Source: Methylophaga sp. OBS1
GTDB lineage: Bacteria; Pseudomonadota; Gammaproteobacteria; Nitrosococcales; Methylophagaceae
NCBI RefSeq assembly: GCF_026319365.1
Contig: NZ_JAPDMS010000006.1
Coordinates: 142,948-206,947 of the forward strand
DNA length: 64,000 bases
Direction: 5' to 3'
A program made the translations under genes and the position numbers. Below are positions 5,410 to 8,563 of the stretch, piece by piece; the stretch's first letter is position 1, and each line of letters begins with the position of its first letter. The notes beneath the pieces were generated by a model. That model made no database searches. It saw only the letters and a program-made list of their open reading frames with translations, and was not told where the DNA came from.

Positions 5410-6186
5410 ATGACACAAAACGCAGCACGCATTATTGCCATCATGAACCAGAAAGGCGGGGTCGGTAAGACCACCACCACCGTAAACCTTGGGCATGCGC
5501 TGGCACAGGCGGGTCAGAGAGTGGCATTGATGGATCTGGATCCACAGGGCCAGGTCGCTACCAGTCTTGGCTTTGATAATCACTCACCAGGGCTCGACAG
5601 CGTTTTGCTGGATGGCGTTGCGATAGACGATATTAAGATGAGTGCTCGTGACAATTTGGATCTGATTGTGGCCGGTAACCGTTTGAATGAATTTGAACAT
5701 ACCAGTGAAGGGGGCATCCAGCGTGGTCACCGGCTGCGTGAGGCGCTACAGCAATCCTCACTGAATCAATACGATTATGTGCTGATTGATTGTCCACCCT
5801 CTTCCGGTTTGCTTGGCGTCAATGCCATGTTTGCTGCCGCCGAGTTATTGATACCGGTCTCCGGTGATTACCTGTCACTGCAGGGCCTGTCGCGGATGAT
5901 TCAGATTCTTAAACGGGCAGAGGAACTGGCTGGCCACAGAATCAGACTATGGTTGGTTTCCACCCGCATGCAAATGCGACGCAGGTTAACCGAAGAGGTG
6001 CGAAACCGCATTCTGAAATATTTCCCGGGCAGAGTGCTATTCACCCCGGTAAGAGAGAATGTGTCACTGGCGGAGTGCCCAAGCTTTGGCAAAACCATTT
6101 TTGATTATCGAAAAAACAGTCCGGGGGCGGAAGATTATCAGTCTCTGGCCCAGGACCTGATGCGCGGGAGAACAGCCGATGGCTGA
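5410..6186 (+). CDS. ParA-family ATPase of the chemotaxis cluster
   Basis: A 258-residue ParA/Soj-type ATPase with the deviant Walker A box KGGVGKTT (signature Lys15, catalytic Lys20), switch DLDPQGQVATSLG and Walker B (YVLIDCPPSS). There is no ParB gene or parS-like repeat next to it. It lies between cheW and a soluble receptor gene and overlaps the latter by 8 bp. Chemotaxis-linked ParA proteins are known: ParC in Vibrio, which positions polar arrays, and PpfA in Rhodobacter, which segregates cytoplasmic clusters through the N-terminus of receptor TlpT. I infer that this protein positions the soluble receptor array on the nucleoid or pole. A plasmid-partition role is unlikely from context. 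Confidence 0.88.
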   Translation: MTQNAARIIAIMNQKGGVGKTTTTVNLGHALAQAGQRVALMDLDPQGQVATSLGFDNHSPGLDSVLLDGVAIDDIKMSARDNLDLIVAGNRLNEFEHTSEGGIQRGHRLREALQQSSLNQYDYVLIDCPPSSGLLGVNAMFAAAELLIPVSGDYLSLQGLSRMIQILKRAEELAGHRIRLWLVSTRMQMRRRLTEEVRNRILKYFPGRVLFTPVRENVSLAECPSFGKTIFDYRKNSPGAEDYQSLAQDLMRGRTADG

Positions 6187-8563
6187 TAATAAAAAAGCGA
6201 TAGGTAATGACCCCCTGGCCTGGCTGACACAGGATGATTCCGATGTTGATCAGGTTGTTGCAGCTAAGCGGGTTGACGACATTCCCGACAAATCATTTCG
6301 GCCAAGTCGTGATAATGCGCCAAAAACGGACACGGAGATTGTAGAGGAGAGCTTTGCACAACTGGCAAAAAAGGGTGAACAGATTGTCAACGACTTTTAC
6401 CTGCATCTGTTTTCACATCACCCGGAGCTAAAGCCGCTGTTTGACGGCATTTCCACTGCGGGCCAGCAGAAAAAGCTGTTAGCGGCATTGATGTTACTGG
6501 TCAATAATCTGCGTAACCCTGAAATTTTGCAGGATTACCTCAAGGAACTGGGTCACCGCCACCAGAGTTATGGCGTCAGCGCCGAAGATTACGAAAAAGT
6601 TAAAGACAGTCTGTTAACCGTGATGTCCAGAGAAGCAGGTGAGGCCTGGAATGAGTCGGTGGCATCCGCCTGGCATAAAACATTGGACTCGGTTGTTCAA
6701 CAGATGCTGAGTAGCTATAACGCTCACAAGGAATCAGATATGGCGGTCTCATCGCTAAAACCGAAAGATAGCTTTACCCGTTTCATGACAAAGGCACTGG
6801 ATGGTGCCGTCACGGCCATTATGATGGTAGACAGGGACTTCAATATTACCTATGCCAATCAATCGACCTTGAACATGCTGGCTGAGCATGAGGAGACGCT
6901 GAAAACCTGCTTTCCCGGCTTTAGTGTCAAAAATCTGGTGGGATCGAATATCGATATCTTCCATAAACATCCTGAACACCAGCGCCAGTTATTGAGCAAT
7001 CCTGAGAACCTGCCCTATTCCGCTGATATTCAGGTTGGCCCGCTGGCATTCAACCTGAATGTGACTGCATTGTTTGATGACAGTGATAGCTATGTTGGCA
7101 ATATGCTGGAATGGCATAACGTGACAGAGGAAAAACTGCACAGCAGGGATATGGATGGTCAGCTGGAAGCCATCAATAAATCCATGGGTGTGATTAGTTT
7201 CTCTATGGATGGCGTTATTACCGATATCAACGATAATTTCCTGGACATCGTGGGCTACAGCCGTGACGAAGTCATTGGTAAACACCACCGGATGTTTGCT
7301 GATACGACCCTGGCGGCGAGTGCATCCTATGCCGAATTCTGGGCCAAGCTGAACCGGGGAGAGTTTGATAGCGGTGAGTACAGACGGATTGCAAAGGATG
7401 GCAAAGAGATTTGGCTTCAGGCCAGTTATAACCCGGTTCTTGATTTAAACGGCAAGCCCTACAAGGTAGTGAAGTACGCTACTGATATCACCCGGCAGAA
7501 ACAACTGCAAATGAACGTGGAGTCAGTATTGCAATCCACAGCGGTAGTGATGAATGCCATGGCGGAAGGCGATCTGACCAAACTGATGCAAGGCGACTAT
7601 GAGGGCGACTTCGCCCAGTTACAGCAGGCCATCAACGGTACTGTGAGCAAGATGGCTTCAGTGGTTCAGGATATCACCGAGGCGGCGATGAATATTTCCG
7701 CTGCGGCCAGCGAAATTTCTCAGGGCAATGTGGATCTGAGTCAGCGCACGGAAGAGCAAGCATCATCGTTGGAAGAGACGGCCTCCAGCATGGAAGAGTT
7801 GACCAGTACGGTAAGACAGAATTCGGACAATGCCCGTCAGGCGAATCAGCTGGCAATGGATGCGCGCGAGAAGGCTGAGAAAGGTGGTGAGGTTATTCAA
7901 AGCGCGATTCAGGCGATGGCAGCCATCAATACTTCCAGTAAAAAAGTCGCTGATATCATTGGTGTGATTGATGAAATTGCCTTCCAGACCAATCTTCTGG
8001 CATTGAACGCTGCCGTAGAGGCCGCGCGTGCCGGTGAGCAGGGACGCGGCTTTGCTGTAGTGGCTTCCGAAGTGCGCAACCTGGCGCAGCGTTCAGCTTC
8101 TGCAGCCAAGGAAATTAAGGCCTTAATCAATGACAGCGGCGAGAGAGTGAGAGAAGGTACCGCGCTCGTCGATGAGTCAGGTAAAACCCTGGAAGAGATT
8201 GTTGATGGAGCCAAGAGAGTAGGCGATATCATTTCCGAAATTGCAGCTGCAGGACTGGAACAGGCTTCCGGTATTGAACAGGTTAACAAAGCCGTTTCCC
8301 AGATGGATGAAATGACCCAGCAGAATGCGGCCCTGGTTGAACAGGCTGCCGCTGCCAGCGAATCACTGGACGAGCAGGGGCACAATCTGCAACAAATGAT
8401 GGCTTTCTTTGATACCGGTCGGCGCATGATGCAGCCGCCAAATCAAACCGCTTCAGGTGTCAGCCCCTTGCCACAGCAAGAGCGGTCTGCAATACAGAAC
8501 CGCCCTTTATTCAGCCGGCAAGCGGCAACACAGCAGGATGACGATGAATGGGATGAGTTTTAG
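6179..8563 (+). CDS. Soluble globin-PAS-PAS chemoreceptor (MCP) with CheR-tether pentapeptide
   Basis: A 794-residue receptor without any membrane segment. Residues 1-50 are polar and disordered-looking and contain NDPLAWL (10-16). Residues about 51-185 align with flavohaemoglobin/Vitreoscilla-type globins: Tyr74 (B10), Phe88 (CD1), Gln97 (E7) and proximal His128 (LGHRHQSYGV). PAS1 (about 200-320) has NIDIFHKHPEHQRQLL and Trp312, the pattern of the Aer2 haem PAS. PAS2 is at about 335-440. The signalling domain is about 490-745 with the tip at about 597-640 (DEIAFQTNLLALNAAVEAAR). The protein ends in EWDEF, an xWxxF tether of the kind that binds CheR. The length of the signalling coil suggests class 36H. 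Likely ligand: oxygen, NO or redox state; this is inference. cheR follows directly. Confidence 0.93.
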   Translation: MADNKKAIGNDPLAWLTQDDSDVDQVVAAKRVDDIPDKSFRPSRDNAPKTDTEIVEESFAQLAKKGEQIVNDFYLHLFSHHPELKPLFDGISTAGQQKKLLAALMLLVNNLRNPEILQDYLKELGHRHQSYGVSAEDYEKVKDSLLTVMSREAGEAWNESVASAWHKTLDSVVQQMLSSYNAHKESDMAVSSLKPKDSFTRFMTKALDGAVTAIMMVDRDFNITYANQSTLNMLAEHEETLKTCFPGFSVKNLVGSNIDIFHKHPEHQRQLLSNPENLPYSADIQVGPLAFNLNVTALFDDSDSYVGNMLEWHNVTEEKLHSRDMDGQLEAINKSMGVISFSMDGVITDINDNFLDIVGYSRDEVIGKHHRMFADTTLAASASYAEFWAKLNRGEFDSGEYRRIAKDGKEIWLQASYNPVLDLNGKPYKVVKYATDITRQKQLQMNVESVLQSTAVVMNAMAEGDLTKLMQGDYEGDFAQLQQAINGTVSKMASVVQDITEAAMNISAAASEISQGNVDLSQRTEEQASSLEETASSMEELTSTVRQNSDNARQANQLAMDAREKAEKGGEVIQSAIQAMAAINTSSKKVADIIGVIDEIAFQTNLLALNAAVEAARAGEQGRGFAVVASEVRNLAQRSASAAKEIKALINDSGERVREGTALVDESGKTLEEIVDGAKRVGDIISEIAAAGLEQASGIEQVNKAVSQMDEMTQQNAALVEQAAAASESLDEQGHNLQQMMAFFDTGRRMMQPPNQTASGVSPLPQQERSAIQNRPLFSRQAATQQDDDEWDEF

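Follow-up and report, generated by a model that had tools for sequence, protein, structure and literature searches.

The closest described relatives of the receptor analysed here are the Aer2 proteins of P. aeruginosa, V. cholerae, V. vulnificus and S. oneidensis, which belong to the F7 chemosensory class and are like it in the His and Trp of the haem PAS domain, the HAMP domain, the signalling part, the CheR tether, the order of the che genes and the cytoplasmic location. Where these proteins carry further HAMP or PAS domains, however, the receptor has an N-terminal F-type globin, and it further differs from them in a flavin-type PAS adjoining HAMP, a ParA gene and a peptide that tracks with ParA. 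The E. coli chemotaxis system is traced back to F7 arrays, whose ancestral function is described as unclear (PMC7184735).

Globins in signalling proteins are known from other systems. HemAT and other globin-coupled sensors likewise have an N-terminal globin that feeds an output domain (an MCP in the present case), but their own globin is S-type, whereas the globin described here is F-type with Phe at CD1 and Gln at E7. Cc_4972 of Corallococcus coralloides has likewise been proposed to unite two kinds of oxygen-binding domain, PAS and globin, in one cytosolic MCP, a combination that a count over 8,075 complete genomes gave for seven proteins, but its globin is a Bac_globin (PF01152) of the truncated type (PMC6194562). 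The word "Aer2" is absent from the main text of that report. HGbRL of Methylacidiphilum is a putative sensor that also contains an F-type-like globin, yet its output is a Roadblock/LC7 domain rather than an MCP, and it is reported from Methylacidiphilum only (PMC4476040). Finally, PpfA-TlpT of R. sphaeroides (PMC3964821) and ParC of H. neapolitanus (PMC10241942) likewise place a ParA-like ATPase beside chemotaxis genes; in contrast to these, the present receptor type has a specific peptide, GxDPLAW(L/M), which in some genomes heads a STAS or globin-STAS protein instead.

The window, that is, the whole stretch of 64,000 nt that was analysed, comes from Methylophaga sp. OBS1 (NZ_JAPDMS010000006.1, positions 142,948-206,947, forward strand), and all coordinates given below for this organism are window coordinates.

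Domain architecture of the receptor

The receptor gene occupies 6179..8563 (+) and encodes 794 amino acids; open reading frame analysis, translation and Pfam matches bear out both the frame and the domains that a preliminary description had assigned to it, and the protein is soluble as that description held, with zero membrane-like segments found in its sequence. From the N-terminus, and all on the + strand, the order is a conserved peptide (GNDPLAWL, residues 9-16, 6203..6226, located by motif scans), an F-type globin (residues 46-185, 6314..6733), an Aer2-type haem PAS (residues 200-322, 6776..7144), a second PAS of the Aer/MmoS flavin type (residues 323-446, 7145..7516), a HAMP domain (Pfam HAMP_2, residues 451-491, 7529..7651), the core of the MCP signalling domain (Pfam MCPsignal, residues 557-713, 7847..8317) and a C-terminal EWDEF pentapeptide of the CheR tether type (8546..8560). 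The earlier picture of a receptor with two haem sensors is thus probably incomplete, a third sensor of flavin type being indicated by the second PAS.

Residues 460-752 align to residues 231-523 of MCP I (6s1k), which we take to be E. coli Tsr. The two segments are of equal length, as would suit a signalling domain of the 36H class, to which the MCPs of E. coli are assigned (PMC9855816). The EWDEF sequence matches the C-terminal tether pattern x-[HFYW]-x2-[HFYW] given for Aer2-like receptors (PMC7184735), and a C-terminal tether is present in 117 of 121 proteins of a relative set composed, by similarity, of the best 120 of 390 protein matches plus the window protein. The receptor does not reach the cut-off of the Vibrio Aer2 equivalog NF041847 (577.1 versus 1200 bits).

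An F-type globin at the head of the receptor

The Pfam Globin profile (PF00042) matches residues 72-176 with 64.2 bits against a cut-off of 22, while Protoglobin, the family of HemAT-type sensors, gives 18.0 bits and falls under its cut-off of 25. Together with the PF00042 match, Tyr74 at B10, Phe88 at CD1, Gln96 at E7 and His128 at F8 are the features by which the domain was classed as F-type. The preliminary description had named the same Tyr, Phe and His, but had placed E7 at Gln97, one residue too far. Tyr B10, Phe CD1 and His F8 occur in all 122 globin domains of the relative set (best 120 of 390 matches plus the window protein). As these relatives had been picked by similarity, a separate check was made on the 30 best-matching whole-genome loci, down to 37% identity and including some of the same organisms, where Tyr74, Phe88, Gln96, His128 and Trp312 of the haem PAS are each conserved in 30/30 and the PAS ligand His262 in 29/30. 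In a globin tree that sampled 40 receptor domains from the 122 (36 by random draw), 16 S-type globins occupy their own side (support 95/87), and nearly all of these 16 are without Phe at CD1 and Gln at E7. The receptor globins form one side of a branch with support 40/0, which does not separate one fusion event from several. By profile, tree and residues the window globin is F-type, and the original assignment of a flavohaemoglobin-like rather than HemAT-type globin holds.

An enzyme of the flavohaemoglobin type was considered and rejected. Pfam finds no reductase domain in the receptor, and the column that holds Glu H23 in flavohaemoglobins (8/8 of those having that column) holds Tyr in 95 of the 122 receptor globins from the best 120 of 390 matches and the window protein, including Tyr180 of the window receptor. 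The mostly Tyr column and the missing reductase make a sensor likelier than an enzyme. The Tyr B10/Gln E7 pocket is like that of the high-affinity globin HGbI (PMC4476040). Four of the 121 relatives (P0002, P0006, P0009 and P0028) carry two or three tandem globins before their PAS domains.

PAS domains, linkers and predicted models

At E up to 0.001, the only PDB matches of the first PAS are three Aer2 chains, from V. cholerae and P. aeruginosa, in agreement with its initial description as an Aer2-type haem PAS with Trp312. The haem ligand, the Eta-His (His262 of the window receptor), and the I-beta Trp (Trp312) are found in all 377 Aer2-type PAS domains of the relative set (best 120 of 390 matches plus the window protein). 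Judged from these residues, both haem pockets are intact, the globin having His128 with Tyr74/Gln96 and the PAS His262 with Trp312; haem binding by the receptor is very likely, and we infer that both haems would sense gas. As the preliminary description proposed, two such sensors might compare O2 with NO or span two ranges of affinity.

For the second PAS, the nearest matches are the redox sensor MmoS and Aer. An F-alpha Trp, described as a flavin determinant in PAS domains (PMC10468136), is present in 32/32 domains of this second type and corresponds to Trp388 of the window protein. In the alignment, the domain does not have the Trp and Asn that Aer and MmoS have in common slightly past the F-alpha Trp, which makes FAD binding less sure; it is probably of the FAD-binding type (Aer/MmoS/BdlA). 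Among the 121 proteins (best 120 of 390 plus the window protein), the arrangement of one globin, three Aer2-type PAS domains and a signalling part accounts for 77, and one Aer2-type plus one flavin-type PAS is seen in 5, the window receptor included.

In the predicted model a helix at residues 316-335 joins both PAS domains, whereas the stretch between globin and PAS (residues 182-210) has pLDDT under 50 and the model as a whole a pTM of 0.35, so that coupling of the globin is not visible in it. Residues 1-46 are likewise modelled with low confidence (pLDDT under 50). Across 118 proteins the linker from globin to PAS ranges from 5 to 140 residues, with a median of 19. When a model of three domains was submitted to Foldseek, two-PAS proteins came out on top; the single-domain comparison is the more telling one.

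The gene cluster and its chemosensory class

By Pfam matches, the genes following fliJ are, in order and all on the + strand, a STAS-domain protein (2157..2444), a CheY-like response regulator (2450..2836), the CheA kinase of the receptor cluster (2865..4892), cheW (4901..5407), a ParA-like ATPase (5410..6186), the receptor, cheR (8581..9432), cheD (9429..10055) and cheB (10067..11143). The outer frames of the cluster are presumably fliI and fliK. Farther on lies a short MCP in which HAMP is matched weakly (13422..14615, +; Pfam) and which, borrowing a label from the F7 literature, we take to be McpA-like. The genes cheA, cheW, parA, receptor, cheR, cheD and cheB occur together at 7 of 9 Methylophaga loci, one locus (L003) being interrupted by a contig end. 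At another Methylophaga locus, L010, none of cheA, cheW, cheR, cheD and cheB adjoins the receptor and the distant ParA match. At 18 of 20 distant loci, hand-picked from the 43 genomes in which one match spans globin and PAS, cheA, cheR, cheD and cheB are all near the receptor.

A CheZ gene is present in 7 of the 9 Methylophaga genomes, and in each of them it adjoins, by position, a second CheA (35-42% identical); in the remaining two (G004 and G007) neither CheZ nor the CheZ-linked CheA was found. Since CheZ stands beside the second CheA elsewhere, the receptor cluster is a CheZ-free, F7-like system, and since that CheZ-linked CheA is available in 7/9 genomes, control of swimming need not be the task of the receptor array. 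For Che1, the F7 system of S. oneidensis, an action on RpoS is considered possible (PMC9855816), and the function of older F7 stages is called unclear (PMC7184735). The setting in an F7-type cluster argues for a globin-headed member of the Aer2-like receptors rather than a classical (S-type) globin-coupled sensor.

The N-terminal peptide and ParA

The ParA-like gene adjoins the receptor and overlaps its start by 8 nt (ORF list, Pfam). PpfA, a ParA-like ATPase encoded beside the gene for the cytoplasmic receptor TlpT, is reported to act via the N-terminus of TlpT (PMC3964821); charged or disordered N-termini are described for partners of ParA-like ATPases (PMC10241942, PMC7993993), and for the chemotaxis ParC of H. 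neapolitanus complementation is reported only jointly with an overlapping neighbour gene (PMC10241942). In a six-frame scan of 62 loci, the motif GxDPLAW(L/M) turned up at 28 of the 32 loci that have a ParA gene and at none of the 30 that lack one, an association for which a Fisher value is not a fair probability because of the kinship among the loci. It always lies 17-350 nt past the end of the ParA match at these 28 loci. It begins the receptor in 23 of them; in the other five the receptor is without it, and the motif sits close to the beginning of a distinct protein encoded directly after parA, which contains STAS at three loci and globin plus STAS at two. A count of receptors only, which misses separate proteins and frames that start inside parA, gives the motif in 13/17 with ParA and 0/14 without.

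The four ParA loci without the strict motif are L009, L010, L011 and L148; at L009 and L010 the ParA matches have only 32-34% identity, and at L148 a STAS protein bears the variant DPFDW. A looser motif gave one unrelated match, in L161. The co-occurrence of motif and ParA gene suggests that the peptide is a ParA partner or docking tag. The two globin-STAS proteins, with the peptide near their start and directly after parA, are at 9086-10030 (-) in L142 and 7618-8568 (+) in L176, and both loci also encode a globin-headed receptor.

A proposed signalling model and its alternatives

On the reading that we favour, and consider likely, the protein serves the F7-type array of a Methylophaga-like methylotroph as its Aer2-like cytoplasmic receptor and carries an additional F-type globin as its head. 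Support for this reading includes the domains, the invariant ligands, the F-type tree, the predicted models, the che neighbours, Trp388 and the tether. In the last PAS of V. vulnificus Aer2 the signal is described as being relayed, with PAS2 regulating (PMC13401364), and the place of that last PAS is taken in the window receptor by the flavin-type PAS. The Aer2-type PAS would bind O2 (or NO) and its state would pass via the inter-PAS helix into the flavin-type PAS, which adjoins HAMP and may act as a redox gate, and from there through HAMP to the cluster's own CheA. The globin, acting through its short flexible linker, would set or modulate the response at another affinity, its HGbI-like Tyr/Gln pocket adding a second range or responding to NO, and the N-terminal peptide would anchor the array to nucleoid-bound ParA. 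As the same peptide, alone or together with a globin, heads STAS proteins in other genomes, exchangeable parts may underlie both the sensing of gas and the positioning of arrays. Taken jointly, three kinds of cofactor, O2/NO read at two affinities, redox gating, nucleoid spread through peptide and ParA, and exchangeable parts make up a scheme that we offer as tentative and consider less likely than not.

The main competing account, which we judge rather improbable, treats the globin as a local buffer or scavenger that binds O2 or destroys NO and protects or delays the haem PAS without conformational signalling. The flexible linker of highly variable length leaves room for it. Glu H23 of flavohaemoglobins has a role in the turnover of NO dioxygenation, and with that column mostly Tyr and the reductase domain absent, NO dioxygenation would turn over poorly. 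A Tyr B10/Gln E7 pocket as in high-affinity HGbI (PMC4476040) would suit a buffer, as would the tandem globins of 4/121 relatives; 8 of 9 Methylophaga genomes, however, separately encode another PF00042 globin, in a frame of 403-432 aa as expected for a flavohaemoglobin, and the fusion of a PF00042 globin to STAS without any PAS at two loci fits a regulatory domain.

Haem-losing globin domains are known, for example in RsbR of B. subtilis (PMC4476040), and a decayed, haem-free structural or dimerisation domain would be a precedent-based reading of the receptor globin; it was dropped, and we regard it as very improbable, given that the proximal His, Tyr B10 and Phe CD1 are invariant in 122/122 domains and 30/30 genome loci. 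An ordinary HemAT-type aerotaxis receptor, to which the N-terminal globin and MCP output would correspond, is scarcely credible and was rejected on the Protoglobin score below cut-off, the separate position of S globins in the tree and the CD1 and E7 residues.

Distribution and significance

Of 369 genomes sampled from the class to which Methylophaga aminisulfidivorans belongs (going by the name, Gammaproteobacteria), 123 have some match at E up to 1e-10, and a single match spans globin and PAS in at least 43, about one in nine. The globin-PAS fusion is thus a widespread family and not a one-off, and with so many related bacteria having the receptor it looks like a common, undescribed way of reading oxygen or nitric oxide. 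A literature search, with few subscription papers, turned up no account of a fusion between an F-type globin and an Aer2 PAS among the matches listed, and the pairing of the two in one receptor is apparently undescribed. The word "globin" is absent from the main text of PMC7184735, whose supplementary receptor architectures may show the pairing. In 2018, two domains that bind oxygen were reported for a protein with PAS, Bac_globin and MCP (PMC6194562), so the general idea of two oxygen sensors is already in print.

A family of this frequency would show haemoglobin-type globins as receptor heads, beyond their roles as NO enzymes and oxygen carriers. The receptor would also offer a natural test case for why two unlike haem sensors stand in one chain, and, with the ParA-tracking peptide, one short motif would be enough to test how arrays are positioned.

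A reading frame adjoining cheB

Next to cheB, the frame 11162-11929 encodes a protein without a Pfam match that has a hydrophobic N-terminus and an MQFEDxxxQ segment; a frame with a similar segment adjoins cheB at 19 of 40 loci. In its D-x3-Q spacing, the segment would be similar to the phosphatase motif of CheZ. This protein and CheD (9429-10055) both have a C-terminal G[DN][VI]ELF, and tails of the form G[DE][IV][ED]LF terminate all 19 cheB-adjoining frames of other loci; the tail is perhaps a shared docking tail.
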